Of a stretch of 64,000 nucleotides of DNA, positions 4,930-60,559 are shown one piece after another. The translations under genes and the position numbers were made by a program. Source of the DNA: Hexactinellida sp. DTS-2022 (Eukaryota > Porifera > Hexactinellida); contig JAPNXP010000001.1 of assembly GCA_028753945.1 (NCBI GenBank), positions 14,436,501 through 14,500,500 of the forward strand, in the 5' to 3' direction. Every line of letters begins with the position of its first letter. Positions within the stretch are counted from its first letter, which is position 1. A model generated the notes under the pieces. It saw nothing but the letters and a program-made list of their open reading frames with translations, was not told where the DNA came from and ran no database searches.

Positions 4930-6375
4930 TTAACTAAAATGCTTTGTAGCTTGTACAATCATTTCGTATTTCTTCTCCACTAATTCTATCGCATCTTGTG
5001 CCGTATCGAAATACTCTATAGAATCTATTTGGTATCCCGGAGCATTCATATCTTTCCAAGCAGTTTGCAATACTTTCTCCCACGGATCTCTACATGCAAT
5101 CACAGCACGTTTGATACCTGGCAAATTGTACATACTGTCTATAGAGTACATGCTCGCTCCGACTAACAATTCTGTGAATGTTCCTATACTCCCGGGCATT
5201 ACTACCAATATAGCAGATTCCTCAACTAGCATGTCTGTCCTCTGGTTAATACCATGGGTTACATATCGCTTTGTAAGACTATCATTCCCTTTCAAACTCT
5301 TTGAGAACAATGTCGGACAAAGCACCCCTTCGGATAACATTTTATTACCCCCGCTTTCCTCCCCCCGTTTAGCCCCTGAATTAGCAGCCTCCATTATCCC
5401 AACATATCCCCCGGTTATAACTCGGAATCCTATAGCAGCGACTCCCAGCCCGATTTCGTAAGCCATCCTATAAGCAGGCTCGTCGGGGCTAGCGTGCCTA
5501 CGCCCGAATATAGCTACTCTCTTAGGGGGGGTATTGATAGAATATCTGATGTCAGTTAGACGCAGCATGTCCAAGAATCGTGATTTCTCATATAAGCTGA
5601 TAGAAGCAATATCATAACCATTGTGTATTAACTGTGCCGCCTCTTTGAGTGTTATGCCTAACGGGCGTATCACGTCTGATAATGCTTCTGTGTCGGTGTA
5701 ACGTCTGCTTAGATAGAAACAGATTCCTCTGGCCAATAGAAAGCGGAGTTTGCTAGAAACCATAAGGAATTCATTCTGTTTGATAGATAGGATTAGTTGG
5801 CAGCTAATAGGCAGACTATCGGTGAATATTATCTCTAGTTCATTATCACTGACCGCACTGAAATCTCGTAATATTATTCTATTCGTAGGGAGAATAGGGA
5901 AATCTCCCTTAATTATCTGAGTTATTTGAATCGCGTTGATAACAGTAGCTGTTATTAACGCGCCTGAGCCTTGTAACGCCGTAACGACATCTTTGGCATT
6001 AAGGAATGTTTCAAAATCGATACAATATCCAGTGAATAAATCCCGCCATATCCCTGAAAATATAATATTTTCCTTCAAACTGAGTTTATTCGGAAACATG
6101 CAACTGAATCTACAGCCAGTAATTAGCTCGCTCATTGCCTTGGAGCAAATCTCACGTACATTCCTATGTGTATTATCTGTTGTCAGGATAGTAGGATCAC
6201 ACAGCAGTAATTCAGTGTACACTGCTTTGTTGTAGGAACATTCTTCTAAATATTCCAGTAGGCATAAATGAAATGGTTTATCTGTTTGTATAAATGTTGG
6301 AGAGACGAATAGTTCTACCTTTGGAGATGTCCACAAATAGAAACTGATTCTGTCTTCTATCTTCTTTGGTTCCAT
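4930..6375 (-). CDS. LOG/SLOG-type nucleotide-processing protein with long unknown N-terminus
   Basis: An uninterrupted 481-residue frame. The C-terminal half (about 285-475) has LOG-family (so-called lysine-decarboxylase-like) features: a Rossmann start RVAIFGRRHASPDE, a glycine-rich turn ITGGYVGIMEAANSGA, the segment INQRTDMLVEESA, and PGSIGTFTELLVG in place of the usual PGGxGTxxE. LOG proteins cleave nucleoside monophosphates at the N-glycosidic bond; related SLOG proteins bind nucleotides. The PGG to PGS change leaves activity uncertain. Residues 1-280 resemble nothing I recognise, and most LOG proteins are only about 200 residues. The start lies in a good context (A at -3, G at +4). No introns are seen. 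It lies antisense within the putative first intron of the Ig receptor. It could be an old bacterial acquisition, but its base composition does not stand out by eye. Confidence 0.8.
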   Translation of the reverse strand: MEPKKIEDRISFYLWTSPKVELFVSPTFIQTDKPFHLCLLEYLEECSYNKAVYTELLLCDPTILTTDNTHRNVREICSKAMSELITGCRFSCMFPNKLSLKENIIFSGIWRDLFTGYCIDFETFLNAKDVVTALQGSGALITATVINAIQITQIIKGDFPILPTNRIILRDFSAVSDNELEIIFTDSLPISCQLILSIKQNEFLMVSSKLRFLLARGICFYLSRRYTDTEALSDVIRPLGITLKEAAQLIHNGYDIASISLYEKSRFLDMLRLTDIRYSINTPPKRVAIFGRRHASPDEPAYRMAYEIGLGVAAIGFRVITGGYVGIMEAANSGAKRGEESGGNKMLSEGVLCPTLFSKSLKGNDSLTKRYVTHGINQRTDMLVEESAILVVMPGSIGTFTELLVGASMYSIDSMYNLPGIKRAVIACRDPWEKVLQTAWKDMNAPGYQIDSIEYFDTAQDAIELVEKKYEMIVQATKHFS

Positions 6376-20172: not shown

Positions 20173-20185
20173 AACCCTAAACATC

Positions 20186-20990
20186 TGACCCTAGGGCTAC
20201 ATGTCTGGGGGACATCTGATCCTAGGGCTACAAGTCCGGGAGACATCTGATCCTAGATCCACATGTCCGGGGAGACATCTGACCCTAGGGCTACAAGTCC
20301 GGGGGACATCTGACTCTAGGGCCACATGTCCGGGGAGACATCTGACTCTAGGGCCACAGGTCCGGGAGACATCTATCCTAGGGTTACATGTCCGGGAGAC
20401 ATCTGACTCTAGGGCTACATGTCCGGGGGGGACATCTGACCCTAGGGCCACATGTCCGGGGAGACATCTGACCCTAGGGCTACAAGTCCGGGGGACATCT
20501 GACTCTAGGGCCACATGTCCGGGGAGACATCTGACTCTAGGGCCACAGGTCCGGGAGACATCTATCCTAGGGCCACATGTCCGGGAGACATCTGACTCTA
20601 GGGCTACATGTCCGGGGAGACATCTGACCCTAGGGCCACATGTCCGGGGAGACATCTGACCCTAGGGCTACATGTCCGGGGGGGACATCTGACCCTAGGG
20701 CCACATGTCCGGGGAGACATCTGACTCTAGGGCTACATGTCCGGGGGGGACATCTGACCCTAGGGCCACATGTCCGGGGAGACATCTGACTCTAGGGATA
20801 CATGTCCGGGGAGACATCTGACTCTAGGGCTACATGTCCGGGGAGACATCTGACTCTAGGGCTACATGTCCGGGGGGGACATCTGACCCTAGGGCTACAT
20901 GTCCGGGGGGGACATCTGACCCTAGGGCCACATGTCCGGGGAGACATCTGACTCTAGGGCTACATGTCCGGGGGGGACATCTGATCTTAG
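20186..20990. repeat. Tandem array A, right arm
   Basis: About 27 copies of the same unit of roughly 30 bases as in the left arm, with higher-order runs (an eight-unit block is repeated near 20265 and 20445). It is much longer than the left arm, showing copy-number change. Confidence 0.9.
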
Positions 20991-21295
20991 GAATGACTAT
21001 AGATCTACTTTTATGGATAACTCCTTTTAAGGTAAAAAATGCATCAAATATGTTTTTCAGTTACTTAAATAATTATTACGATTGTGTCTTGAAAACCTGA
21101 CGAAGGAACTTAAGCAGTTAGAAAGCTTGTCATAAGACGTAAGGTATTTTATTACATTATAGTTTCAACATTGAGTTACCTGAATTAATTATTCATGAAT
21201 AATTATGTAGGGCCACAGTAAGGTTCAGATTTTCAAAATAATATAAATAATACTTCATTTGTCCATAAATACATTAATAATAAGAAAAACTTACT

Positions 21296-22381
21296 ATGTT
21301 TGTATCGGCTATTAATATTGGATTACATGTAGAGGTCCTATTATTATCTATAATATCTTTCCCACTATGTCCATTAACGCTATTCGTATTAGTGTACTAT
21401 GTACGGCGGAGATACAAGCTGTATCGAGAGATAAAGAGAGTTCCACGGGAAATGCTATGGAAGGACACTTTTAGGAACCATCTTAAGAATCTCAGGTTAA
21501 AGTGTGTCATCCATAACTTCGTTATTATCATTTTAATAATGGAATTTATCCGAAGTTTAGGCATAATACTCTCGTCGCTTCCTTCCTGGTTCATATATTT
21601 TGGAAATGAGAACTCAGGTTTGGTAGAATATCAAATGAATGTTGAAGGATTTTTCAGCGGACACATTGTTCCCCAATCAAATTCCTTTGTCCCTGTACTG
21701 TGCCTATTCATGAAGTTCCTATGGTTGGCATATAGGAAACTCGAATACAAATATACTATCATTAGATGGACATGGTACATAGTGATAAGAGTTATTATGC
21801 ATACATCGTATCATTTACTTCATCAAATCCTCCCTAATGATTATCGATATAATGGCATAATTCTTATGAGTCTGATTGTGGAATTCTTCATAATTCTTGA
21901 CTTTATACAGTATGTATATTATTCTAGAAAATTCTATTTGCTACTTAAAAGTAGGGAGACAGAAATTCGTCTATTTTACTTCGATAAGAAAGCATATCTC
22001 GATATCAAATTCCTATGTTTCCATTTTAAGATCGCAACCATCTTGGTAGCAATAGCACTGTTCTTCTTAACTACTTGTAGAACTCTTCACGCTTTTAATA
22101 AATTGTTTATAATTCCCCTTTCTGAATACAATTTTTGCTACGCAGCTATTCTACAATGGTTTTGTAACAATGAACATTATATTTATCATTGCACAAAGAC
22201 TTTCCTTATTCGCCCATGTAGATTAGTTTACTCAATTCTGTTTAATTTTAACTATTTGTATATATTCATTGCTGTTGTTTACAAGTCTTACAGTGACAGA
22301 CAAAAGTTAAGAAACATAAATAGTTACATCAAGCCTATTGTCAAGCGGTATCATGATAGAGTGTATAACCGCTATCCATAG
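21296..22381 (+). CDS. Orphan 7TM receptor-like protein, member A
   Basis: An intronless 361-residue frame with seven hydrophobic segments at about 14-36, 70-90, 128-147, 158-175, 187-210, 242-262 and 308-330. Positive charge places the loop after segment 1 (RRRYKLYREIKRV) and the C-tail (KSYSDRQK) in the cytoplasm, giving the N-out/C-in topology of GPCRs rather than of insect taste receptors. The first cytoplasmic loop is unusually long (about 34 residues), and no class A, B or C motif (DRY, NPxxY) is present. Family and ligand are unknown. The stretch before the ATG (atttgtccataaata .. aagaaaaactta) is shared with member C. The last residues are altered: an inserted hAT MITE supplies the TAG, removing an ancestral NYIQC tail. 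Confidence 0.75.
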   Translation: MFVSAINIGLHVEVLLLSIISFPLCPLTLFVLVYYVRRRYKLYREIKRVPREMLWKDTFRNHLKNLRLKCVIHNFVIIILIMEFIRSLGIILSSLPSWFIYFGNENSGLVEYQMNVEGFFSGHIVPQSNSFVPVLCLFMKFLWLAYRKLEYKYTIIRWTWYIVIRVIMHTSYHLLHQILPNDYRYNGIILMSLIVEFFIILDFIQYVYYSRKFYLLLKSRETEIRLFYFDKKAYLDIKFLCFHFKIATILVAIALFFLTTCRTLHAFNKLFIIPLSEYNFCYAAILQWFCNNEHYIYHCTKTFLIRPCRLVYSILFNFNYLYIFIAVVYKSYSDRQKLRNINSYIKPIVKRYHDRVYNRYP

Positions 22382-22543
22382 GCGTCGTAAATGCAAAGGT
22401 CAATCCTTCGGCCCGCCCGGAAATTCCTGGTAATGTCCGGGTAAACTCCGGGTAAACTCGGAGTTTAGTGTTAGTAGCATAGGGACAATCCCTTCGGCCC
22501 GCCCGGACATTTCCGGGCACCCGGGCGGTTTACGACGCCTATG
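22377..22543. mobile_element. hAT MITE inserted in the 7TM-A C-terminus
   Basis: 167 bases starting CATAGGCGTCGTAAATGC and ending GGTTTACGACGCCTATG, flanked by the perfect 8-base duplication CCGCTATC (22369-22376 and 22544-22551). Its first bases CATAG supply the receptor stop. Removing the element and one duplicate restores ..NRYPNYIQC-stop, close to the NRYPNYTLC end of member C. Confidence 0.92.
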
Positions 22544-22770
22544 CCGCTATCCTAATTATATACAGTGTTAGGTGATGTGTGATTGCTTCCAAATAGAGCG
22601 TTTGTCCTTCTTGTAAACTAAACTTTTATTGTTTGTTTGTTTTATAATTCTCTATAAAGCATTCATTTTGATATTTTGTATTGTAATTTAATTAAACTAA
22701 CTTCAAAGCTCGTTAAAGTTCGTTATATATAGATATGTACAACAATTAAAAAAATCCAAAATTGCAGCTG

Positions 22771-22851
22771 TGCCGACAACATGCAGTTCCTTTGGAGGCA
22801 CTATATTTGGCTGGTTAATTGATATAACCTCCAAAGGAAATGCTGTCGGCA
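22771..22851. other. Imperfect hairpin, about 81 bases
   Basis: The arms tgccgacaacatgcag..cctttggagg and cctccaaaggaaatgctgtc..ggca pair over about 23 bases with a four-base bulge, around a 28-base loop. The size suits a small-RNA precursor, but a tiny MITE remnant is equally possible. Confidence 0.4.
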
Positions 22852-23109
22852 TAGTTCTTCATTCTCTGCTCCAATAGGCAGATAGACAGGACCGTCGAGA
22901 GCGCGAGCGGTAAGTTCATAATTTGTGTGCGGATCCCTGACTACCTCTGATATTTTAGTTCTGTTATCGTGAAATGAATAAACTAAACGCAAACTATTGC
23001 ATTCGTATTACACATATTTAAAATATACAATAAATTAAATCCTATTTTCTCCTATAGTTCATGAATTTTCACTTTTACGATATTAAGTAGTATAAATTAA
23101 ATACTAATA

Positions 23110-23282
23110 CAGTGGATGCCGGTTATAAGCACATCGTCGGGAACTGCACTTGATGTCTTATAACCGGCATGTTCTTATTACCGACATGAATTATACAAGG
23201 TATATGGCAACCGTTTTTCAACATAGTGTTCTTATATCCGAAATGTTCTTATAACTTGTGTGCTTATATACGACATTTACTG
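23110..23282. mobile_element. MITE, 'cagtggatgccggttataag' family
   Basis: TA-flanked, same left end as 1297-1439, ending atacgacatttactg. It holds extra internal copies of 'ttcttat..ccgacatg'. Confidence 0.75.
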
Positions 23283-23896
23283 TACTACAAAGCTAATACT
23301 AGTTATTGTAGCAGATACAAACTAAGTCAGGACCTGATTTCTAGCAATGATTAAAGAAATATTGTGTCCGGGGGAGTATAAACCAAGTTTCTACCGAATA
23401 CAGTATAACTTTGTTCTATACTAATACGATTAATACGACATTCTGGTTTTACAAACAGTATTTCTGTCCCCTCCTAACCCTTTCCATTACAATGATATTT
23501 GTACGCTAATTAACTATGTAGATAATTGAATTGAAGTTTGTTACTTGTATTGAGTGTTATATTCTAAAATTCAACTTAAAATAAAGAAAGTTACGCTGCT
23601 GTTGGCAATTTGGTTCTCTGCTTATCTCACATGTTGAACTTAATCAATAATCAAATAATTAAATCCAACCGAGTTGACACTTTGTTAGGCAGAAGACCAG
23701 TCAAATTAAGGTCAGGTCAAGGCGCTCAGAAAAATAGGTTCAGATCACTCTAAGGTCAGGTAATGACCTGACTTTTGGAAAGCTTGCTTAATACACATCG
23801 AGATCACTCTAAGTATATTAACTAACTACTCCTAGGAACTTCGTTAAAGGGGAGTTCACAGTATATTTAGAATAATGTTATCAAATACATCTACTC
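23283..23896. other. Non-coding stretch with MITE debris
   Basis: Contains a worn pogo-type end near 23400 and, at about 23690-23790, 'aggtcaggtcaagg' repeats ending aaagcttgctta, a decayed relative of the hAT MITE at 52205. No gene was seen. Confidence 0.45.
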
Positions 23897-24057
23897 CATG
23901 GGCATAGGCTCCGATAGGGCTGGTAGGGCCATGACCCTACCAATAATTGTCTTTTCTCCATAGAAGCTAACACAAATATGCCAAGATGGCCCTACCAATG
24001 TCCTAACATCCAGCCTATAAGGGCCCTACCATTCTCCAAAACGAGTCTACGCCCCTG
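23897..24057. mobile_element. Probable hAT-like MITE
   Basis: Ends CATGGGCATAGGCTCCGATA and CGAGTCTACGCCCCTG are loosely inverted. The flanking 8 bases match only in half, so this is an old insertion at best. Confidence 0.4.
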
Positions 24058-24660
24058 TGTAACTCCGCTCATGGCTTTATCCGGCCATAATAGACCTGCG
24101 CACCCTAGGTGATGTAACATTTTCATTCGCACACCCAAATTTACAAAAATACAATAGAACTCGGTCTAATATCAGGGATTTTCACTAGTCACTTGATTGA
24201 CTCGGTGACTCGAGTCAGGACTCGCGAGTCATCGAGTTCAGGAATCGCGAATTATTGATTAATTTTTAAGAAAATAAGAAAATAATCGCTAACAATAGAT
24301 ATATTCCCCCATTTATTGGAAGTTATATAATCTCATGAACACACAATGATTAAGGACATTTTAAATTAAATATCTATAGGGACTATCCAAATTCTATTAG
24401 TATTTGCAACTACAATTTTCCAGGGATTTAGCTTGGTTAATTAAGAGCTCATGTTACTGCTTATATGAAATATAATTCAATGAAATTAGTATACTATATT
24501 ACATCTTCCATTATAGTAATATGTATTATGTTTGCATTATGTTAATACTGTAGGATATGATAATTCCCCTTTTCCAATGTCTCAAAGCGATTATAAATAT
24601 CGTATTTGTGGATTCAAATTATACTACACATAATATACTTCAACTGATTGATACAGTACA
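24058..24660. other. Upstream region of 7TM-B
   Basis: AT-rich. A patch near 24190-24250 repeats 'gactcg' and 'gagtca' in both orientations and may be MITE debris. Unlike members A and C, it shows no shared sequence just before the ATG. Confidence 0.4.
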
Positions 24661-25734
24661 ATGAATGAATCGGCCACTAGGATTGGAGCTAGAGTAGAGT
24701 TCCTTTTTGTACCAATAATATCTTTCCCATTCTGTCTACTGACGATATTCGTATTAGTGTACTATGTACGGAGGAGATACAAACTGTATCGAGAGATAAA
24801 GAGAGTTCCACGGGAAATGCTATGGAAGGACACTTATAGGAATCATCTTAAGAATCTCAGGTTAAAGTGTGTTATCCATAATTTCGTTATTATCATTTTA
24901 TCGCTGGAATTATTCCGATCTATAATTTATACACTATGTTTCCTTACCTACTGGTTCATCGAATTTGCGCATGAAAGTAAGGCTATGCACAGTTTTCAAT
25001 ACAAAGTTCAAAAGTTCTCCTACATGTTACTTGATCCCATAGCATATTCATTTATCCCTGTACTGTCTTTATTAATGAATTTGTTATGGTTAGCATATAG
25101 GAAATACGAATACCGATATACTGTCATTAGATGGTCATGGTATATTGCTATAAGAACCATCATAATTATTTTAAAGCAATGCCTTCTCAGTAATCTCCCA
25201 ATAGAATATCAATATTTGTTTATGATTATTTACAGGTCGGTGTGGGGATCTCTATCCATTCTAGACTTTATACAGTATGTATATTATTCTAGAAAGTTCT
25301 ATCTGCTTCTAAAAAGTAGAGAGACAGAAATTCGACTATTTTACTTCGATAAGAAAGCATATCTCGATATTAAATTCCTATGTTTCCATTTTAAGATCGC
25401 AACCATCTTAGTTGGCATAGCACTGTTCTTCTTTTCTGTATCTTTTTCCGTTGAAAAATATCTTAAAACAGTAACGGATATTCTTTGTGTCATTTCTATT
25501 CCCAGATCGTTTTGTCATCAGGTTTTATTTTCTCAGTACATTATTGTTTTTATATCTCATCCCTCTGCATCTATTTGCAATATCATATATATTTTTAATT
25601 ATTTTTATATGTTTGTTGTTGTTGTTTACCAGTCCTATAGAAATCGCCAGAAGTTAGCCAATATTAACGACTACATTAAGCCCCTAGTCCAACAATACCA
25701 TGAGAGACACTTCAATCATTATAATTATTGCTAA
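24661..25734 (+). CDS. Orphan 7TM receptor-like protein, member B
   Basis: An intronless 357-residue frame and the most divergent of the three members. It keeps the long first cytoplasmic loop (RRRYKLYREIKRVPRE onward) and the block from DFIQYVYYSRKFYLLLKSRE through the sixth-segment start, identical in protein sequence to A and C. The outer halves of segments 2-5 and the third extracellular loop (about 262-305) differ strongly: member A has LQWFCNNEHYIYHC where B has FSQYIIVFISHPSASIC. The N-terminus MNESATRIGARVEF contains a possible N-glycosylation site (NES), as expected if it faces outside. The C-terminus ends NHYNYC. It stands in tandem with member A, 2.1 kb downstream on the same strand. 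Confidence 0.75.
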   Translation: MNESATRIGARVEFLFVPIISFPFCLLTIFVLVYYVRRRYKLYREIKRVPREMLWKDTYRNHLKNLRLKCVIHNFVIIILSLELFRSIIYTLCFLTYWFIEFAHESKAMHSFQYKVQKFSYMLLDPIAYSFIPVLSLLMNLLWLAYRKYEYRYTVIRWSWYIAIRTIIIILKQCLLSNLPIEYQYLFMIIYRSVWGSLSILDFIQYVYYSRKFYLLLKSRETEIRLFYFDKKAYLDIKFLCFHFKIATILVGIALFFFSVSFSVEKYLKTVTDILCVISIPRSFCHQVLFSQYIIVFISHPSASICNIIYIFNYFYMFVVVVYQSYRNRQKLANINDYIKPLVQQYHERHFNHYNYC

Positions 25735-25749
25735 TCTTGTTCCTATCTA

Positions 25750-25755
25750 AATAAA
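25750..25755 (+). terminator. Candidate poly(A) signal of 7TM-B
   Basis: AATAAA 15 bases after the stop codon, followed by T- and GT-rich sequence (gattgttgtgtatgtgtttg). This is a close, plausible cleavage context. Confidence 0.45.
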
Positions 25756-25849
25756 TGATTAAACTTGATTGTTGTGTATGTGTTTGTTTGCTTTGTCTTC
25801 ATTTGAATTAATTTAAAGTGATTGGGTAACAGAAAATACATTTTATTGA

Positions 25850-26230
25850 AAAATCAACGAATAAAATATGTCGATTTTATAAAATCAACATATTTTATTC
25901 GTTGATTTTGTAAATCGACAATCTAAATGTTGATTTTGTAAAATCAACATTTCAGAATGTCGATTTTACAAAATAATCTAATAAAATATGTTGATTTTAT
26001 AAAATCGACATATTTTATTCGTTGATTTTGTAAACACACACTTAAAATGGCCCGAGCGTTTCAAATAACCATACAAGACACTTTGTTTAAAGCCTGGTTC
26101 TTTTATCTTGTTATGTGCTACATGCTTCCTCAGTTAAGCATGGATATACCCTCACTCCACACCTTGACAGAGAATGTTGATTCATGTCGTTTTTGTAAAA
26201 TCAACATTTGACAAAATCGACAAAACATAT
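25850..26230. repeat. Palindromic 'gattttgtaaaatc' repeat cluster
   Basis: Multiple facing copies of 'gttgattttgtaaaatcaac' and 'aataaaatatgtcgatttta' form overlapping palindromes. About 130 bases of unrelated sequence interrupt the cluster near 26040-26170. Probably fused remains of a small inverted-repeat element. Confidence 0.6.
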
Positions 26231-26235
26231 CTATA

Positions 26236-26686
26236 TATCTATATTATAAAAACTCGAATGTTGTGTATTTGTTTGTCCGGATTGTATTAAAGTGATGGGG
26301 GAATAGAACCGCAATCACATATGAGATATAAACTAACTTCCAAATGTTATAATAGGTAAACAAGTATGCTGATTTCGAATTTCGCATTTATAAATTTATA
26401 ATATAAATATTTGTTGTTGTTGTTTACCAAAATAGATAAACAAATTATTGAAAATTCAAAATGAACTTAGAAGTTAGCTTCCAACGGGTATTATTGGTAA
26501 AAAAGTATGCTGATACGAATACGATTAGAACTATGGAAAATGGTAGAAACGGTTGTATATGACTTCCTCTACCATTTTCCATGGTAGCAACGGTGAGGAG
26601 TAATGCTGCATAGCGGCCGATAACTGAGGTACGTAGTACCGATTTGTCGCAAAGCGACCGAGACCGAAGGGCTCGTATGATATATA
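26236..26686 (+). mobile_element. Helitron-like family H, near-complete copy
   Basis: Begins tctatattataaaaactcga (A before the TC) with a GTTT-type tract and 'attaaagtgatgggggaata'. It ends in the GC-rich landmark gcggccgataactgaggtac .. gcgaccgagaccgaagggct. Other copies lie at 28.3-29.0 (minus), 36.6-37.2 (plus) and 58.4-58.9 kb (minus). No protein is encoded. The A|TC start fits a Helitron, but the 3' CTRR end was not confirmed. Confidence 0.55.
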
Positions 26687-26870
26687 CAGTCAACTCCGCT
26701 TAATTGGGTCACATCGGGACCAGGTTGTTTTGACCCGATTAAGCGGAGAAACCGATTAACCGAAAATATTGTAAGCCAAACTGTTATTCTGTCCTATAAA
26801 TCCTGTGAAATTTTGACCCGATTAAGCGGAGAAACCGATTAACAGGTCTCCCAATTAAGCGGAGTTGACT
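26687..26870. mobile_element. pogo-like MITE, 'caactccgcttaatt' type
   Basis: Starts CAGTCAACTCCGCTTAATTG, ends AATTAAGCGGAGTTGACT and carries 'gattaagcggagaaaccgat' twice inside. It directly abuts the family H copy. Confidence 0.8.
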
Positions 26871-26892
26871 ATATGATATGATATATGATATA

Positions 26893-27061
26893 CAGTAGAG
26901 CCTCTGAACAACGGACACCTTGGGACCGGAACCGTTGTCCGCTATTTAGAGGTTGCTTTTCTATTAGACATATGCTAAATAAATAAATCCGTGCCACGAG
27001 GGTTGTCCGTTATTTAGAGGTTGTCCGCTATTTGGAGTGTCCGTTATGGGAGGCTCCACTG
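26893..27061. mobile_element. pogo-like MITE, 'cagtagagcctctgaacaac' type
   Basis: TA-flanked; starts CAGTAGAGCCTCTGAACAAC and ends TATGGGAGGCTCCACTG. Inside are several 'gtccgctatttagagg' copies. Confidence 0.8.
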
Positions 27062-27119
27062 TATATGAAATGATATATATGATATTATATATATTGATAC
27101 GATATGATATATATACAGT

Positions 27120-27728
27120 ATATGACATCACTTGTGTGACGTGGTGGAGGCGCTTCCCACCGTATAAGGTCAGTCACTCCCAGGAGGTATAGGCAGTGAT
27201 GTTTTGGTGGGGGGGGCTCGGAGGGGCGGACCCCCCACTTATTTCGCTAGGGGGGCGCTTATACCAGGAGGGGCGCTCCTTCCTATCAGTTATCTATAGA
27301 ATTCATTATTGGGGGCCGTTTTCACCAATGTTTTCTAAGAAAATGCTAAATTTGAAAAGGGAGCCCCCCCCCCCCCCACTTCTTTTTTTGGCAAAACACC
27401 ACTGGGTATAGGTGCCGATGGAGCTGTGTGGACAGCGAGATAGAGCAGGCCTAGCTGTGTAGGCAGCCAGGGACCAGACAGGGTCCCGCGGGTACTACAC
27501 AGCGGTCGCAGTGAGCTATTAAGAAGAGTACCGTCCTCCTAATGAGGTCTATGGAGGGACGAAACCCTTGAGTGGTTGGTGAGAATGGTGACACCTCATG
27601 GACCTGCGATCCGCAGATTGTGGCAACGTTCGGGAAGGTCCCAAAGCTTCCATGACATTTGAATATTAATGTCACGACCCTTGTCCTCTGGAGTATGCGG
27701 TGTTGGGAGCAATGAATAAGTTGACAGT
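27120..27728. other. Less AT-rich stretch of unknown origin, split by a hAT MITE
   Basis: After removing the MITE at 27194-27404, the sequence reads about 400 bases of unusually GC-balanced DNA (ggagctgtgtggacagcgag and on). It has no long frame, tRNA-type box or rRNA-like motif that I recognise. It could be a SINE or a gene remnant. Confidence 0.4.
27194..27404. mobile_element. hAT MITE
   Basis: Starts CAGTGATGTTTTGGTGGGG and ends TTTGGCAAAACACCACTG, flanked by the perfect 8-base duplication GGTATAGG (27186-27193 and 27405-27412). Confidence 0.9.
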
Positions 27729-27759
27729 ATGGACAGACTCACCCAGTGAGTCTGTCCAT
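27729..27759. other. Perfect 14-base-pair hairpin
   Basis: ATGGACAGACTCAC pairs perfectly with GTGAGTCTGTCCAT across a three-base loop (CCA). It overlaps the left end of the next inverted-repeat element. In DNA it could extrude as a cruciform; its role is unknown. Confidence 0.6.
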
Positions 27760-28009
27760 GTAAAATTGTTTGCAATGATTGAACTAGTGTTGTGCATGAA
27801 GTGACACAATAGGATTTATTAGTTAGGCTTTGTTACCATGTTATTTAAACACATCTTATAAACATTATTTATCAACAATTCCTTATCAAATCCAGTTGGT
27901 ATTCATTGGGCAGTTCAATAGAGGTGATTAATAAGAATACTAATATAGTATCATATTGTGCCACTTCATGCACAACACTAGTTCAATCATTGCAAACAAT
28001 TTTACATGG
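27756..28009. mobile_element. Inverted-repeat element with 56-base arms
   Basis: The arms start CCATGTAAAATTGTTTGCAA and match with one difference by eye. The middle is AT-rich and non-coding. No target duplication is clear, so the superfamily is open. Confidence 0.75.
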
Positions 28010-28074
28010 GCGAAAATTAACGTAATATGATACACACGTAGCTTATAGTATATACGTAGTGTTTAACAATTTAA

Positions 28075-28310
28075 TCAAATTCCACTCGATTCCACTATTC
28101 AGTCAAAGATTCCACTCGATTCCACCATTCAGTCAAATTCCACTAGATTCCACTGTTCAGTCAAAGATTCCACTCGATTCCACTGTTCAGTCGGTTTTTA
28201 GAAAATCCACTCGATTCCACCGTTCAGTCAATTCCACTAAAATTTAGTAATTCCACTAGATTCCACTGGATTCCACTGGATTCCACTCGATTCCACTATT
28301 CAGTCAGCCC
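28075..28310. repeat. Minisatellite, 'attccactcgattccac' type
   Basis: About nine irregular copies of 'gattccactcgattccactg' with 'ttcagtca' between many of them. It borders the family H copy. Confidence 0.8.
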
Positions 28311-28964
28311 CCTTGTTTACCAATAATACCCGTTGAAGGCTAACTTCTGGGTTGATTTTGAATTTTCATTAATTTTTACCTATTTTGTGTAAGCAACAAC
28401 AATAAATATTCACATTATAAATTTGTAAATGCGATTCGTGATCAGCATACTTGTTTACCTATTACAGAGTTGGAATCGGGTTCGGGTTTCTCGGGTCGGG
28501 TCGGGTTCGGGTCGGGTTCGGGTTAAGATTTGGATTTAGAATCGGTTTCGGGTCGGGTTCGGGTTCGAAGTTGATCAGTTAATATCTACACTTATATACA
28601 CTTCGGGTTCGGGTCGGGTTCGGGTTAAGATTTGGATTTAGAATCGGTTTCGGGTCGGGTTCGGGTTCGAAGTTGATCAGTTAATATCTACACTTATATA
28701 CACTTCGGGTTCGGGTCGGGTTCGGGTTAAGATTCGGATTTAGAATCGGGTTCGGGTCGGGTTCGGGTTGAAGCTCGTCGGGTCGGGTTCTGAAAAGTGG
28801 ACCCGATTCCAACTCTGACCTATTATTACATTTGTTTACCTATTATAACATTTGGAAGTTAGTTTCTATCAAAATAATGAATGCGGTTTCTATTCCCCCA
28901 TCACTTTAATACAATCCGGACAAATACACAAACAAACACACACATATACACCAATCGAGATTTA
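28311..28964 (-). mobile_element. Helitron-like family H, copy with insertion
   Basis: Reverse-oriented family H (ccgttgaaggctaacttctg at left, 'tcccccatcactttaataca' then cacaccaatcgagatttaat at right). It is interrupted by the hAT MITE at 28465-28817, and its GC-rich 3' part is missing, replaced by the minisatellite. Confidence 0.55.
28465..28817. mobile_element. hAT MITE with internal 'cgggttcgggt' tandem repeats
   Basis: Starts CAGAGTTGGAATCGGG and ends CCCGATTCCAACTCTG. The perfect 8-base duplication ACCTATTA lies at 28457-28464 and 28818-28825. Inside, a unit of roughly 100 bases containing runs of 'tcgggttcgggt' is repeated about two and a half times. The runs look telomere-like but belong to the element. 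Confidence 0.92.
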
Positions 28965-29171
28965 ATATTTTGAAAAAAGGACAAAATATCACGCTTTGGG
29001 CTTAAAAAAAGTTTCAACCCTGATACGAACTGGTGCCATGTGTGTGATCGACAGAGCCCGTATCAATTCATCCATGTGTCAGAACTAACAAACATATTAA
29101 TTCGTTAGACTTTTAGTTTGTTTGCTTCAATTTATTGTTAGTAGAAAGATTCCCTATTCAAATCTGTATAT
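28965..29171. other. Non-coding stretch
   Basis: Nothing recognisable; AT-rich. Confidence 0.4.
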
Positions 29172-29427
29172 ACCGTTTAATATGGCGTTCATACTCGAAT
29201 AGGTATCCCTCCCCTCGAATAATCGCCCCCCGAGTAGCAAATAATATTTTGTTACCGCTGCCCGGAGTAAACATCTTTATCTAATATAAGTTCCAATAAG
29301 ATTATAAACCGAGTATAATAAATAAATTGTTAATATAAAGTGCGATATTCTCGAAAATTCATAATTTTTTTGTTCAAATGGCGAAAAAACAATAGTCGCC
29401 TAGGCTACTATTCGAGTAAGTACGGTA
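29172..29427. mobile_element. MITE of the 'ctcgaataatcgcc' family
   Basis: Left end taccgtttaatatggcgttc, right end actattcgagtaagtacggt. The inside carries 'cgaataatcgccccccgagt' and 'cgcctaggctac'. A partial copy lies at 12951-13196. Confidence 0.6.
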
Positions 29428-29560
29428 ATATTAATATTAGTAACCTGTAAAGTTAGTTTAATTAAATTACAATTCAAAATACAAAATTGAGTGTTTAGCA
29501 GAGAAATATAAACAAACATATAATTAAAGTTTAGTTTACATAAAAACTGTATTTACATGA

Positions 29561-30655
29561 CTAGCATAGCGTATAATTAGGATAGCGGTTATACAATCTA
29601 TCATGATACCGCTTGACAATAGGTTTGATGTAATTGTTTATGTTTTCTAACTTCTGTCTGTCACTGTAAGACTTGTAAACAACAACAATGAACATGTACA
29701 AATAGTTAAAATTAAATATAAGTAAGTAGACAAATATACAGGGGGATTGGATGAAAACAATTGTGAAATTATTGATAGAATTTGCATTATTACAAAACCA
29801 TTGTAGGAGAGCTGTGGAGCACCAATTGTATTTCAGAATTGCAAACAGTATATTAAAATTGTAAATAGATAAATATGCAGTTAAGCAGAACAGTGCTATT
29901 GCTACTAAGATGGTTGCGATCTTAAAATGGAAACATAGGAATTTTATATCGAGATATGCTTTCTTATCGAAGTAAAATAGACGAATTTCTGTCTCCCTAC
30001 TTTTGAGAAGCAGATAGAATTTTCTAGAATAATATACATACTGTATAAAGTCAAGTATTATGAAGAATTCCACAATCAGACTCATAAGAATCACGGCGAA
30101 ATATTGATAACCATTAGGGAGGATTTGTGCAATTAAATAGTGCAATCTATTCATAATAACTCTTATCACTATGTACCATGTCCATCTAATGATAGTATAT
30201 CTGTATTCGAGCTTCCTATATGCCAACCATAGGAACTTCATGAATAGGCACAGTACAGGGACAAACGAATATGATTGGGAAACAATGTAATCGTAGCTAA
30301 AAGTTTCAACATTAATTTGAAATTCTTTCAAACCAGAGCTCTCATTTCCAAAATATATGAACCAGGAAGGAAGCGACGAGAATATATAGCCTATACTTCG
30401 TACAAATTCCAGCGATAAAATGATAATAACGAAATTATGGATGACACACTTTAACCTGAGATTCTTAAGAAGGTTCCTATAAGTGTCCTTCCATAGCATT
30501 TCCCGTGGAACTCTCTTTATCTCTCGATACAACTTGTATCTCCTCCGTACATAGTACACTAATACGAATAGCGTCAGTAGACATAGTGGGAAAGATATTA
30601 TAGATAATAATAGGGGTATTACTTCATATCCAATATTAAGAGCTGATTCAAACAT
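29561..30655 (-). CDS. Orphan 7TM receptor-like protein, member C
   Basis: An intronless 364-residue frame on the opposite strand to members A and B. Its topology is the same as A. It is closer to A than to B (PSWFIYFGNES, FVPVLCLFMKFLWLAYRKLE and the C-tail KRYHDRLYNRYPNY are nearly shared). It differs mainly between segments 6 and 7, where A has TTCRTLHAFNKLF and C has TAYLSIYNFNILF. The intact end NRYPNYTLC shows what member A has lost. The roughly 45 bases before the ATG resemble those of A, suggesting a shared control region or a recent duplication unit. Ligand and G-protein coupling are unknown. Confidence 0.75.
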   Translation of the reverse strand: MFESALNIGYEVIPLLLSIISFPLCLLTLFVLVYYVRRRYKLYREIKRVPREMLWKDTYRNLLKNLRLKCVIHNFVIIILSLEFVRSIGYIFSSLPSWFIYFGNESSGLKEFQINVETFSYDYIVSQSYSFVPVLCLFMKFLWLAYRKLEYRYTIIRWTWYIVIRVIMNRLHYLIAQILPNGYQYFAVILMSLIVEFFIILDFIQYVYYSRKFYLLLKSRETEIRLFYFDKKAYLDIKFLCFHFKIATILVAIALFCLTAYLSIYNFNILFAILKYNWCSTALLQWFCNNANSINNFTIVFIQSPCIFVYLLIFNFNYLYMFIVVVYKSYSDRQKLENINNYIKPIVKRYHDRLYNRYPNYTLC

Positions 30656-33627: not shown

Positions 33628-34833
33628 TTAGAACTTCTGAAAGCAGTCATTAGCATTACCATTACTCACACAAATAATATTATTTGCGTTGTCTAGTGTA
33701 ATACCAGCTAATGATCTGAGGTGGCCTTTTCCTAGGATGTGCTTGAGTTTTCCATCAGGTGAGAAGATACGGATTTCGTTTATAGAGTTATCAGTAATTA
33801 AGAAGTTGCCTTTCGTGTCCATTGTGAAGAATAGAGCTGTTGTCATAGGTTGCTCCTGTCCAGTTAACTCTATCTTCTTAAGAAAAGTACCATCTCTGTT
33901 GTAGCAGTAGATTGTATTCTGGTCAAGAGACAGAATATGCAGAGTGTCTGAGTGGATAGTGATGTCACTGGGCTGTTTGATTTCTCTAGAACCGAATTTC
34001 TTAATAAATTGGAGATTTAAATCGAACACTTGGATTCTTTGCATACTACTATCACATACATAAACCAATTCAGCTTCATAACACAATCCTAATATTCCCA
34101 TAAAGCAGCCTGGTGTAGTGCCTCTGGATCCAGTCTTGTTTATAAATTGTCCGGCTAGACTAAACCTCATTAAACATTCTCTTGCAACATCGGTCACAAA
34201 CACACCATCTTGTGACACACAAATACCATGTGGCTCTTTCAAGTGCTCTGTTCCGAATGAACGTAGATACTCTCCTTCTGTATTCAAGACTTGTATGCGA
34301 CTGTTACTATAATCACTAATGAAGACCTCATTCCTTATTCTCTCAATTGATATGCCACTTGGAGTAATAAACTCGCCATTTCCACTGCCCCTCTTACAAC
34401 TCTTAAGAACAAGACTTTCTCTCCCCACATACTCTGGCATCAGTTCTATTAAATCAGTCTCTTCGATCGCATTACGGATCTTACCAGAGAAACAACGAAA
34501 CTCAACAAACGAAAGATTTTCCACTGCTACCTTCAAATCCTCTTTCGCTTGTATTTCCTTATCCTATCCTTCTCTAATAGAATCCAATTTCCCTCCTAGA
34601 ATGTTGCTAGTCATCACATTAACTGCTGTATCTCTCACAATTCTCAGCTGTTCCATTGCCGCATCCAGCTCTGCATTCCTATCGTGTCCCTCCTTCATTC
34701 TCGCTAGTCTCCCCAGGAGATTCCGTCTCTTCTCCGATAGAAGCAAATCCAGCTCATCAAAGCTCCGCTCTATTTCCAGTTTCAGAGCTTCTAGCTTAGC
34801 ATCGACATTCTGTACATCTCTAGCAGCAGCCAT
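33628..34833 (-). pseudogene. NHL-propeller protein, copy 1, with one internal stop
   Basis: Exactly the same length as copy 3 (1206 bases), with the same frame throughout. The start MAAARDVQNVDAKLEALKLE leads a coiled-coil (about 5-110) and six NHL-type blades (about 155-401). One codon is changed to a stop: codon 91 reads TAG where copy 3 has TTG (leucine), cutting the product to 90 residues of coiled-coil. No other disruption is visible, so the break is young, polymorphic or a sequencing error. NHL propellers bind RNA or protein. No RING or B-box is present, so calling it TRIM would overreach. Confidence 0.8.
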
Positions 34834-43192: not shown

Positions 43193-44398
43193 TTAATACT
43201 TCTGGAAGCAGTCATTAGCGTTGCCATTACTCACACAAATAATATTATTTGCGTTGTCTAGTGTAATACCAGCTAATGATCTGAGGTGGCCTTTGCCTAG
43301 GATGTGCTTGAGTACTCCTTCAGGTGAGAAGATACTGATTTCGTTTATATAGTTATCAGTAATTAAGAAGTTACCCTTCGTGTCTACGGTGAAGAATAGA
43401 GCTGATGTCATAGGTTGATCTTGTCCTATTAATTTTATCTTCTTCAGATAAGTACCATCTCTGTTGTAGCAGTAGATTGTATTATGTTTTAGAGACAGAA
43501 TATGGAGAGTGTCTGAGTGGATAGTGATGTCAGTGGGCTGTTTGACTTCTCCAGAACCGAACCTTTTAACAAATTCGAGAGTTAAGTCGAAAACTTGGAT
43601 ACTCTGCATACCACTATCACATACATAAACCAATCCAGCTTCATAACACAGTCCTGATATTCCCTTAAAGTACCCTGGTGTAGTGCCTCTGGATCCAGTC
43701 TCATTTATGAATTGTCCGGCTAGACTAAACATCATCAAACATTCTCTCGCCCTATCGGTCACAAACACACCATCTTGTGACACACAAATACCGTGTGGCT
43801 CTTTCAAGTGCTCTGTTCCGAATGAACGTAGATACTCTCCTTCTGTATTCAAGACTTGTATGCGACTGTTATTTTTATCTGCAATGAATACTTCATTCCT
43901 TATTCTATCGACCGAAATTCCTCTAGGAGTCTTAAACTCGCCATTTCCACTGCCATTCTTACAACTCTTAAGAACAGGACTTTCTCTACCCACATACACT
44001 GGCATCAGTTCTATTAAATCAGTTTCTTCTATTGCATTACGAATCTTATCAGAGAAACAACGAAACTCAACAAACGAAAGATTTTCCACTGCTACCTTCA
44101 AATCCTCTTTCGCTCCTATTTCCGTATCAAAGTATTCTCTAACAGAATCCAATTTCCCTCCCAGAATGTTGCTAGTCATCACATTAACTGCGGTATCTCT
44201 CACAATTCTCAGCTGTTCCATTGCCGCATCCAGCTCTGCATTCCTATCGTGTCCCTCCTTCATTCTCGCTAGTCTCCCCAGGAGATTCCGTCTCTTCTCC
44301 GCTAGAAGCAAATCCAGCTCATCAAAGCTCCGCTCTATTTCCAGTTTCAGAGCTTCTAGCTTAGCATCGACATTCTGTTCATCTCTAGCAGCAGCCAT
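43193..44398 (-). CDS. NHL-propeller protein with N-terminal coiled-coil, copy 2
   Basis: 401 residues from MAAARDEQNVDAKLEALKLE. Residues 5-110 are a charged coiled-coil, probably for self-assembly. From about 155 there are six NHL blades: FKTPRGISVDRIRNEVFIAD, then HGICVSQDGVFVTD, GLVYVCDSGMQSIQVFD and so on, ending NANDCFQKY. An in-frame upstream extension of 80 codons exists, but it is translated hAT MITE DNA and is absent from copies 1 and 3, so the start shared by all copies is used. RING and B-box, found in TRIM-NHL ubiquitin ligases, are absent. No introns. A 500-base MITE lies 62 bases before the ATG and may alter its control. Confidence 0.85.
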   Translation of the reverse strand: MAAARDEQNVDAKLEALKLEIERSFDELDLLLAEKRRNLLGRLARMKEGHDRNAELDAAMEQLRIVRDTAVNVMTSNILGGKLDSVREYFDTEIGAKEDLKVAVENLSFVEFRCFSDKIRNAIEETDLIELMPVYVGRESPVLKSCKNGSGNGEFKTPRGISVDRIRNEVFIADKNNSRIQVLNTEGEYLRSFGTEHLKEPHGICVSQDGVFVTDRARECLMMFSLAGQFINETGSRGTTPGYFKGISGLCYEAGLVYVCDSGMQSIQVFDLTLEFVKRFGSGEVKQPTDITIHSDTLHILSLKHNTIYCYNRDGTYLKKIKLIGQDQPMTSALFFTVDTKGNFLITDNYINEISIFSPEGVLKHILGKGHLRSLAGITLDNANNIICVSNGNANDCFQKY

Positions 44399-44460
44399 CT
44401 CTTCTATAAACTGAATGCAATACTGTACACATTTTATTTTATAGTACATCAGAACCAGCG

Positions 44461-55474: not shown

Positions 55475-56680
55475 TTAGTATTTCTGGAAGCAGTCATTAG
55501 CATTACCATGACACAAACAAATAATATTATTTGCGTTGTCTAGTGCAATACCGTTTAGGAATCTGAGGTGGCCTTTTCCTAGAATGTGCTTTAGTACTCC
55601 ATCAGGTGAGAAGATACGGATTTCGTTTATAGAGTTATCAGTAATTAAGAAGTTACCTTTCGTGTCTACTGTGAAGAATAGAGCTGATGTCATAAGTTGC
55701 TCCTGTCTTGTTAACTCTATCTTCTTAAGAAAAGTACCATCTCTGTTGAGGCAGTAGATTGTATTGTGTTGTGCAGACAGAATATGGAGAGTGTCTGAGT
55801 GGATAGTGATGTCAGTGGGCTGTTTGATTTCTCCCGAACCGAATTTCTTAACAAATTCGAGAGTTAAGTCGAACACTTGGATTCTTTGCATACTACTATC
55901 ACATACATAAACCAATCCAGCTTGATAACACAATCCTCGTATTCCCTTAAAGCACCCTGGTGTAGTGCCTCTGGATCCAGTCTTGTTTATGAATTGTCCG
56001 GCTAGACTAAACCTCAACAAACATTCTCTTGCAACATCGGTCACAAACACACCATCTTGTGACACACAAATACCCTGTGGCTCTTTCAAGTGCTCTGTTC
56101 CGAATGAACGTAGATACTCTCCTTCTGTATTCAGTATTTGTATGCGACTGTTATTTTTATCACTAATGAAGACCTCATTCCTTATTCTCTCAATTGATAT
56201 GCCACTTGGAGTAATAAACTCGCCATTTCCACTGCCCCTCTTACAACTCTTAAGAACAAGACTTTCTCTCCCCACATACTCTGGCATCAGTTCTATTAAA
56301 TCAGTTTCTTCGATTGCATTACGGATCTTACCAGAGAAACAACGAAACTCAACAAACGAAAGATTTTCCACTGCTACCTTCAAATCCTCTTTCGCTCTTA
56401 TTTCCGTATCCAATCCTTCTCTAATAGAATCCAATTTCCCTCCTAGAATGTTGCTAGTCATCACATTAACTGCGGTATCTCTCACAATTCTCAGCTGTTC
56501 CATTGCCGCATCCAGCTCTACATTCCTATCGTGTCCCTCCTTCATTCTCGCTAGTCTCCCCAGGAGACTCCGTCTCTTCTCCGCTAGAAGCAAATCCAGC
56601 TCATCAAAGCTCCGCTCTATTTCCAGTTTCAGAGCTTCTAGCTTAGCATCGACATTCTGTTCATCTCTAGCAGCAGCCAT
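55475..56680 (-). CDS. NHL-propeller protein with N-terminal coiled-coil, copy 3
   Basis: A clean 401-residue frame with the same layout as copy 2: a coiled-coil to about residue 110, a linker with the conserved FVEFRCFSGKIRNAIEETD, then six NHL blades, for example FITPSGISIERIRNEVFISD, AGLVYVCDSSMQRIQVFD and KGNFLITDNSINEIRIFSPD. The three copies differ mainly by scattered residues in the blades. The start sits in 'agagATGG', a fair context. It is intronless. The product is probably a cytoplasmic scaffold or RNA-binding protein; no catalytic domain is visible. Confidence 0.87.
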   Translation of the reverse strand: MAAARDEQNVDAKLEALKLEIERSFDELDLLLAEKRRSLLGRLARMKEGHDRNVELDAAMEQLRIVRDTAVNVMTSNILGGKLDSIREGLDTEIRAKEDLKVAVENLSFVEFRCFSGKIRNAIEETDLIELMPEYVGRESLVLKSCKRGSGNGEFITPSGISIERIRNEVFISDKNNSRIQILNTEGEYLRSFGTEHLKEPQGICVSQDGVFVTDVARECLLRFSLAGQFINKTGSRGTTPGCFKGIRGLCYQAGLVYVCDSSMQRIQVFDLTLEFVKKFGSGEIKQPTDITIHSDTLHILSAQHNTIYCLNRDGTFLKKIELTRQEQLMTSALFFTVDTKGNFLITDNSINEIRIFSPDGVLKHILGKGHLRFLNGIALDNANNIICLCHGNANDCFQKY

Positions 56681-59863: not shown

Positions 59864-60559
59864 TCAATAATAACATTTATACCAATTTAACAACATGGAT
59901 AGAGTAGAAATAATAAACAAGACATAGTGCAATCTATTAAGGGAAGTTTTCTGTTTGTGAGGTTGTGAATATTTCCCAAATTCTGCTTTAAGTTTTCTCT
60001 GCAATTCCTCATTGCTCATACTTCCAAATACAGACTTGTACTTTTGTATTTTAACAATTAAATCCAATCGTCCCACCAGTCCCATCAGATCACACAAGTA
60101 TGCCAAGTTGGGTTCTACTGCCCAGGACTCTATAATGGCGTGGAGTCCTGTTTCGAATGTAAAGTTTGTTCCCACTTCGCGTCTCATTTCAGTCCGAACA
60201 ATTAACTTCAGGTCTTCTAACGCAAGTTCGTTTCTCAGCATTATAACGAATCTCCTGACAGGAGACTCTGTGACTATCTCCCTGCTCTTACTGTGCAGCC
60301 ACGGGATGGAGTATGCTGTCCCAATTAAATCCTTTCTGCCTATTCTCTCCAGTGCATCAGGGAATTCCTCTGGATCGAATTCTCTCCACTCATCTCTGAG
60401 AGAGAATATAAACTCGCTTGCTCTGTGTTCAGATCTTTCCCGTATCCCATCTGGAGCCAGGAGATAGAATTGGAGTTTTCGTATCTCTTCCATCGTCAGA
60501 GAGTCTATCAGTGTCCTCAGCTGATGGCTTTCTCTACTGACCGTTCTTGTTGTTTTATC
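59864..60559 (-). CDS. Tandem death-effector-domain protein with tail anchor (last exon)
   Basis: An ATG stands at 60493, but the frame continues open upstream to a good acceptor (caatctag|gat at 60560/60559). The added residues (SHQLRTLIDSLT) complete the first helix of a death-effector domain, so the exon likely begins at 60559. The first DED-like unit runs SHQLRTLIDSLTMEEIRKLQ through RIGRKDLIGTAYSI, aligning well by eye with the FADD type. A second death-fold unit follows (VRRFVIMLRNELALEDLKL to LMGLVGRLDLIVKIQKYK). The end, LHYVLFIISTLSMLLNWYKC, is a single hydrophobic helix near the C-terminus, suggesting insertion into ER or mitochondrial outer membrane. It would be an adaptor or decoy for caspases; no protease domain follows. 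The first exon was not found. Confidence 0.65.
   Translation of the reverse strand, partial: DKTTRTVSRESHQLRTLIDSLTMEEIRKLQFYLLAPDGIRERSEHRASEFIFSLRDEWREFDPEEFPDALERIGRKDLIGTAYSIPWLHSKSREIVTESPVRRFVIMLRNELALEDLKLIVRTEMRREVGTNFTFETGLHAIIESWAVEPNLAYLCDLMGLVGRLDLIVKIQKYKSVFGSMSNEELQRKLKAEFGKYSQPHKQKTSLNRLHYVLFIISTLSMLLNWYKCYY

Follow-up and report, generated by a model that had tools for sequence, protein, structure and literature searches.

Introduction

Selection on the outer face is described for the nematode srz receptors, mammalian formyl peptide receptors are described as paralogues that are alike above all in their cytoplasmic signalling domains, and a survey of Amphimedon describes lineage-specific seven-transmembrane (7TM) receptors, several of them encoded in clusters of 2 to 8 adjacent genes that share 51-74% identity, as far as the available parts of these three reports go (PMC2576165, PMC545074 and PMC4302439, respectively). 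Here we analyse three genes, A, B and C, in a window of 64,000 nucleotides (the whole stretch of DNA analysed) from Hexactinellida sp. DTS-2022 (assembly GCA_028753945.1, contig JAPNXP010000001.1, forward-strand positions 14,436,501 to 14,500,500), which lies within a 17.6-Mb contig of a genome assembly of 112.4 Mb in 18 contigs. Judged from their sequences, A, B and C are part of a membrane protein family that appears to be undescribed and has about fifty members in this one animal genome. The pattern of this family is real and beyond chance, no name was found for it, and its members are best read as predicted recognition or chemosensory receptors.

Genes A, B and C belong to an expanded family

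A sequence-only reading of the window had proposed three genes with uninterrupted coding frames, and all three are complete open reading frames (ORFs) from ATG to stop, a statement that concerns the coding frame only. The genes and their two conserved blocks are located as follows, with the sources of each assignment in brackets.

21296..22381, + strand: receptor-like gene A, complete ATG-to-stop ORF of 361 amino acids (ORF list, genome protein search, hydropathy)
21383..21535, + strand: gene A residues 30-80, predicted basic first cytoplasmic loop and start of transmembrane segment 2 (TM2) (alignment, hydropathy)
21893..22048, + strand: gene A residues 200-251, predicted third cytoplasmic loop with the flanking end of TM5 and start of TM6 (no difference among A, B and C)
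24661..25734, + strand: receptor-like gene C, complete ATG-to-stop ORF of 357 amino acids (the sole member with a conversion signal at the Bonferroni level)
24748..24900, + strand: gene C residues 30-80, first conserved block (silent sites in common with A, B and D)
25258..25413, + strand: gene C residues 200-251, second conserved block (silent sites in common with A, B and D)
29561..30655, - strand: receptor-like gene B, complete ATG-to-stop ORF of 364 amino acids (ORF list, genome protein search, hydropathy)
29903..30058, - strand: gene B residues 200-251, second conserved block (alignment)
30416..30568, - strand: gene B residues 30-80, first conserved block (alignment)

At the protein level, B is 79% and C 58% identical to A. 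The two nearly unchanged blocks are recovered in the protein alignment: residues 30-80 vary among A, B and C at positions 59 and 62 only, and the 52 residues 200-251 show no difference among the three. This second block is not fixed across the wider family, and in D, a close relative of A and B at C1:14044631, it already differs from A, B and C. Two figures of the sequence-only reading need to be replaced. The first loop, given there as about 34 residues, comprises 40-41 residues in A, B and C, and in place of about eight base changes in about 150, all silent, we find six silent changes and one amino-acid change (F257C) between A and B in the 174 bases encoding residues 200-257. The region between segments 6 and 7, which had been described as barely alignable, is indeed where the proteins diverge most, with a nonsynonymous divergence (dN) of 0.37 for A-B and 0.94 for A-C.

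The genome contains about 51 uninterrupted full-length frames of the superfamily, namely 24 in family I, 6 in subfamily II, 7 in subfamily III and 14 in subfamily IV (the last including C12:5760958, whose end is doubtful), together with over a dozen interrupted or partial copies. Because the genome protein search scores only the best candidates, frame by frame, these counts are a lower bound and spliced relatives are missed. Profile comparison links family I to III and IV with a probability of 99.9%. In a tree of 48 members, I (100/99) and III (100/100) each form one side of a well-supported branch, while II is weakly supported (84/16) and IV is not grouped. Members with stops (L022, L031, L033, L036 and L038) and the partial L034 were excluded from the selection and tree analyses; 12 of the 14 subfamily IV members were aligned, and alignment A4 holds 32 of the 48 tree members. 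One family I pseudogene closely related to A-D, L036/L038 (G000:C4:1177113-1183316), contains internal stops and has its halves about 5 kb apart.

Homology between copies extends into the non-coding flanks to an extent that differs by pair, reaching up to about 1.3 kb upstream and, downstream, the end of the fetched 1.5-kb flank, and retroposition was rejected as the origin of the copies on this ground. New copies would arise by DNA duplication, both tandem and dispersed, and some would die as pseudogenes.

The proposal of an expanded orphan 7TM family holds in that the roughly 51 genes have no credible sequence relative in Pfam or the PDB. Specifically, Pfam listed no match up to an E value of 10 for the three window proteins, and for 23 family I and 32 superfamily members it gave only scattered names that included no 7TM receptor model, the strongest match being to a family of unknown function (E 0.009). 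Against PDB sequences, the family profiles had no match and A by itself matched only a serpin (E 0.96), and viral contigs scanned with the family I profile gave 118 pattern matches and no relative. In the literature on sponge receptors and receptor selection, within a scope that left out most subscription papers and bioRxiv, no title or abstract start describes this family; the phrase "long first cytoplasmic loop" is absent from the best-ranked matches on that subject, and the terms ICL1 and intracellular loop 1 are absent from the main text, as available, of an eLife survey of G-protein-coupled receptor (GPCR) families (PMC12716839).

Predicted topology separates a conserved inner half from a variable outer half

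Hydropathy and charge suggest, in our reading, seven segments with the N-terminus outside. In A, B and C, the predicted cytoplasmic loops 1, 2 and 3 and the tail carry 13, 4-6, 8 and 5-9 lysine or arginine residues, respectively, and the outer stretches 0-4. When 11 members were scanned mechanically for hydropathy, seven segments were listed for seven of them and eight for the other four, B and C included. The extra segment sits between segments 6 and 7; in A, this stretch is picked up by the scan, but segment 4 is not. Loop 1 spans 33-41 residues in all 11 scanned members (limits approximate), and 9-33 residues precede TM1.

In line with this topology, the 13 invariant or nearly invariant columns among 32 aligned members fall in the predicted cytoplasmic half or mid-membrane, and inner identity exceeds outer identity in 10 of 10 subfamily comparisons. 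Additionally, in most members of subfamilies III and IV (L054, L057, L064 and others), the first and third outer loops each contain, by eye, a cysteine, the one in the third loop mostly within N-x-C; the pair may form a disulfide, and family I is without the first cysteine.

The outer half of recent family I genes is under diversifying selection

A recent burst of 15 family I genes is spread over C1, C2, C5, C6 and C10, with a median pairwise pS (silent differences per site) of 0.11 and pN (the nonsynonymous counterpart) of 0.10 when 16 genes are counted; neither the 15-member set nor alignment A3 includes L019, which is almost the same as L018. Hydropathy was used to partition the gene into 164 outer and 195 inner codons, and this partition was drawn after the sliding-window plot had been seen. 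When it is shifted along the gene, the ratio is equally high in 4 of 386 shifts and reaches its maximum at a shift of 4 columns.

The codon likelihood code, which matches the IQ-TREE M0 log-likelihood (-5884.26), gives a whole-gene omega (dN/dS ratio) of 1.31 for the 15 members. The two halves behave in opposite ways: with one rate, omega is 2.56 in the outer and 0.40 in the inner half, and an outer value of 1 is rejected at p 1e-26; with separate rates, the values are 2.03 and 0.49, and the rejection stands at p 8e-11 (likelihood-ratio test statistics, LRT, of 42 and 115 across the two rate models). Site models agree, as M2a is preferred over M1a (LRT 274) with 20% of sites at an omega of 5.5, and 47 of the 48 sites above 0.9 in M2a are outer (hypergeometric p 5e-17).

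Because recombination is present among these 15 members (pairwise homoplasy index, PHI, p 0.002), the selection test was repeated without a tree on seven disjoint pairs. Counting gives an outer omega of 1.62 (bootstrap 1.21-2.22) and an inner omega of 0.33, and likelihood gives 2.45 (p 4e-11) and 0.40; over the seven pairs, the outer values range from 1.05 to 3.17 and the inner values from 0.17 to 1.01. Across all 105 burst pairs, the outer omega is above 1 in 94 and the inner omega below 1 in 102. The outer omega is 1.39 for the C2 members alone and 1.41 for the dispersed members alone. Among A, B and D, it is 1.14-1.25 (values given without a test against 1), with an inner omega of 0.14-0.23. 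The conserved cytoplasmic face and diversifying outer face that had been proposed from the window are thus borne out in the burst, in tree-based and disjoint-pair analyses alike.

A relaxation of constraint in the outer half following duplication, with no positive selection involved, would be in keeping with the many recent copies and pseudogenes and with an outer omega below 1 in subfamily III. Relaxation alone, however, cannot yield an outer omega significantly above 1, as found in the burst with and without a tree, and we regard this explanation as very improbable. We favour persistent diversifying selection as what would shape the outer half in family I.

Purifying selection, with a local conversion signal in gene C

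The sequence-only reading attributed the likeness of the cytoplasmic loops across the family to segment-wise gene conversion. The conserved blocks used below were taken from that reading, and the tests using them were not blind. Uniform synonymous divergence (dS) along the gene, which that reading had itself named as evidence to the contrary, is what A, B and D show: an 8-bin heterogeneity test of silent divergence gives p 0.36, 0.44 and 0.86 for A-B, A-D and B-D, and where the members of these pairs have the same amino acid, their pooled codon identity is 0.92 in block 1, 0.88 in block 2 and 0.87 in the rest (the dS of A-B is 0.05-0.36 per region). Silent divergence among A, B and D is even, and purifying selection therefore explains their conserved loops.

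The part of the conversion proposal that stands concerns C. Relative to A, B and D, its dS is 0.12-0.19 in loop 1, 0.22-0.39 in loop 3 and 0.53-0.72 around loop 2, and it is saturated in the tail, though the protein there is fairly conserved (dN 0.19-0.24). At equal amino acids, the codon identity of C with A, B and D is 0.90 in block 1 and 0.85 in block 2 versus 0.64 in the rest. At amino acids identical in A-D, C carries the shared codon at 94 of 100 positions within the blocks versus 52 of 74 outside (p 2.8e-5), and in a stricter set at 61 of 66 versus 31 of 43 (p 0.005).

As a mechanism that keeps the loops alike across the family, conversion can thus draw on the silent sites of C and on the recombination detected in the recent burst. 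Set against this, together with the evenness among A, B and D, Bonferroni correction over the 276 family I pairs leaves only two significant, D-C and B-C; A-C fails it (block test p 3.7e-4), and the next pair, L017-L030, reaches p 0.011. The blocks are also unremarkable in codon identity both within the recent burst (0.955 in block 1, 0.916 in block 2, 0.946 in the rest) and between the burst and A-D (0.567, 0.500 and 0.578). Tests without preset blocks are weak, the 8-bin heterogeneity giving p 0.029 (A-C), 0.057 (B-C) and 0.44 (D-C) and the best-segment search p 0.26, 0.0135 and 0.30 in the same order. Family-wide conversion was rejected on the evenness of A, B and D and the restriction of significant pairs to C, and we hold it to be quite unlikely. 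A general constraint on silent sites in the blocks was also rejected, being visible neither among A, B and D nor between A-D and the burst. Taken together, one or two conversions involving C are likely, probably having homogenised its two inner blocks with the A/B/D lineage; conversion is likely a local extra, with selection as the main cause of the pattern.

A receptor superfamily is the probable explanation

We consider it probable, if not secure, that A, B and C belong to an expanded superfamily of seven-transmembrane receptors, N-terminus out and C-terminus in, each encoded in one open frame, in which ligands drive change on the outer face, the inner face docks a partner and conversion is secondary. 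This proposal combines the observed open frames, copy number, contrast between inner and outer selection and local conversion signal in C with a predicted topology and a putative surface role. The outer half, consisting of the N-terminus, outer helix ends and outer loops, would meet fast-changing ligands such as microbial, allelochemical, gamete or kin cues. The inner half, with its 40-residue basic loop 1, loops 2 and 3 and basic tail, would dock one invariant intracellular partner and be held by purifying selection. That partner would most likely be a heterotrimeric G protein; the genome holds G-alpha genes, which we count in favour of receptors (matching stretches, not genes, number 47 for G-alpha, 19 for class C receptors, 71 for 7tm_2 and 2 for 7tm_1, one of the last two over the cut-off).

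The same outer-face selection would also fit escape from an attacker, if the proteins were membrane channels or transporters whose changing outer face lets them elude a parasite or toxin; the eight hydrophobic stretches in 4 of 11 members and the absence of a matching known receptor family agree with this as well. Yet the invariant basic loops 1 and 3 resemble docking surfaces for a cytoplasmic partner, and Pfam names just one transporter family, PHO4, which a single member matches at chance level (E 0.081). Moreover, such turnover, copy numbers and single-frame coding are typical of chemoreceptors. We judge channels or transporters unlikely.

Several results weigh against the receptor proposal as a whole. 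The eight segments listed in those four members would place the basic tail outside, and an AlphaFold model of the three window proteins is too poor to use (predicted local distance difference test score, pLDDT, 49.6). Recombination can inflate the tree-based site models, not the disjoint-pair result; one of the seven disjoint pairs has an inner omega of 1.01, and the outer omega is at or below 1 in 11 of the 105 family I pairs. In subfamily III, tested on 6 of 7 members, the outer omega is 0.64, below 1 at p 0.0017, the inner omega is 0.37, and M2a, better than M1a (LRT 14.7), places just 2 sites above 0.9. The evidence for outer diversifying selection accordingly covers the family I burst and does not extend to the whole superfamily. 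Additionally, no sequence link to a known GPCR class appears in Pfam on 23 and 32 members or in profile alignment, itself an insensitive test.

Receptors as the preferred reading would nonetheless account for change on the outside combined with nearly fixed inner parts, a combination expected of receptors whose outside signals change quickly. If the proteins do act as receptors at the cell surface, ligands would probably bind at the face marked by the 48 selected sites, and the partner would dock at the near-invariant inner loops; the outside cue behind the selection and the partner of the 40-residue first loop could then be tested for.

Repeats and other features around the genes

A repeat overlaps the end of gene A.

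22377..22543, strand not given: dispersed repeat resembling a miniature inverted-repeat transposable element (MITE), with 15-bp perfect terminal inverted repeats and flanking 8-bp direct duplications at 22369-22376 and 22544-22551

The stop codon of A lies within the first bases of this MITE-like repeat, and the C-terminal tail of A is shorter than those of B and D. The repeat has 33 further matches among the best 40 scored in the genome, and a flanking duplication of 8 bp is of the size typical for hAT elements. About 300 bp upstream of A, a minisatellite at 20181-20991 comprises about 25 copies of a 32-bp unit. Elsewhere in the window, three similar ORFs lie on the - strand at 33628-34440, 43193-44449 and 55475-56680, the latter two with NHL repeats behind a region without a listed domain in the Pfam scan. 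Also on the - strand, the Pfam scan finds a SLOG/LDcluster4 (lysine-decarboxylase-like) domain in the C-terminal part of a 481-amino-acid ORF at 4930-6375, and an ORF at 59864-60493 has a sub-threshold death effector domain match (E 0.032) and a hydrophobic C-terminus.

Comparison with known receptors

Class A receptors, formyl peptide receptors among them, have a short first cytoplasmic loop and are further marked by D/ERY at the end of TM3, NPxxY in TM7 and a disulfide between TM3 and the second outer loop. As the sequence-only reading had noted, D/ERY and NPxxY are absent by eye from the family alignments; loop 1 is long in every member scanned, and the second outer loop has 3-16 residues in the 10 delimited members and, by eye, no conserved cysteine. 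Its statement that no known GPCR class fits also agrees with Pfam, which lists neither 7tm_1 (class A) nor 7tm_2 (class B and adhesion) nor the nematode chemoreceptor models, srz included, for the 3 window proteins or the 23 or 32 members. Class C GPCRs carry a large ligand-binding ectodomain; 7tm_3 (class C) is not listed for the 23 or 32 members, and the stretch before TM1 is short. Insect odorant receptors have the N-terminus inside; the insect models 7tm_6 and 7tm_7 have no Pfam match here, and the charge distribution predicts an N-terminus outside.

Profile alignment with hhalign against 6 7tm_2, 2 class A and 5 class C sequences of the same genome gives probabilities of at most 0.6%, in a test in which the known classes find each other at only 0.6-2.7%; for the 6 7tm_2 sequences the values are 0.2-0.3%, the known classes themselves reaching just 1.6-2.7%. 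The region G000:C2 4.9-6.0 Mb, which contains the main family I cluster, also contains single-frame 7tm_2 receptor stretches, with no sequence relation between the two in this insensitive test. It is possible, though doubtful, that the family forms a separate animal 7TM class outside every Pfam GPCR class, marked by the basic loop 1 of 33-41 residues and serving fast-evolving recognition of microbes or of self and non-self in a sponge-like animal.

With the 7tm_2, class A and class C GPCRs of its own genome, the present family has seven predicted transmembrane segments in common. It resembles the Amphimedon receptors in being lineage-specific and in having neighbouring genes; those, as far as the available part of the survey tells, were found by Pfam search, whereas the present members match no 7tm model, and Pfam-based GPCR surveys of this kind would miss them (PMC4302439). 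The sequence-only reading had named a clear match to a described receptor family with the same pattern as evidence against it, and the Caenorhabditis srz receptors (Pfam PF10325) do show the same outer-face diversifying selection in the available part of their report, a likeness that holds for the recent burst of family I and not for subfamily III, with no kinship detected (PMC2576165). The present family differs from srz in lacking a PF10325 match, in its basic first cytoplasmic loop of 40 residues and in that each member is encoded in a single open frame. No sequence relation was found to the mammalian formyl peptide receptors, with which the family nonetheless shares, going by the available part of that report, paralogues that are most alike in their cytoplasmic signalling domains (PMC545074).

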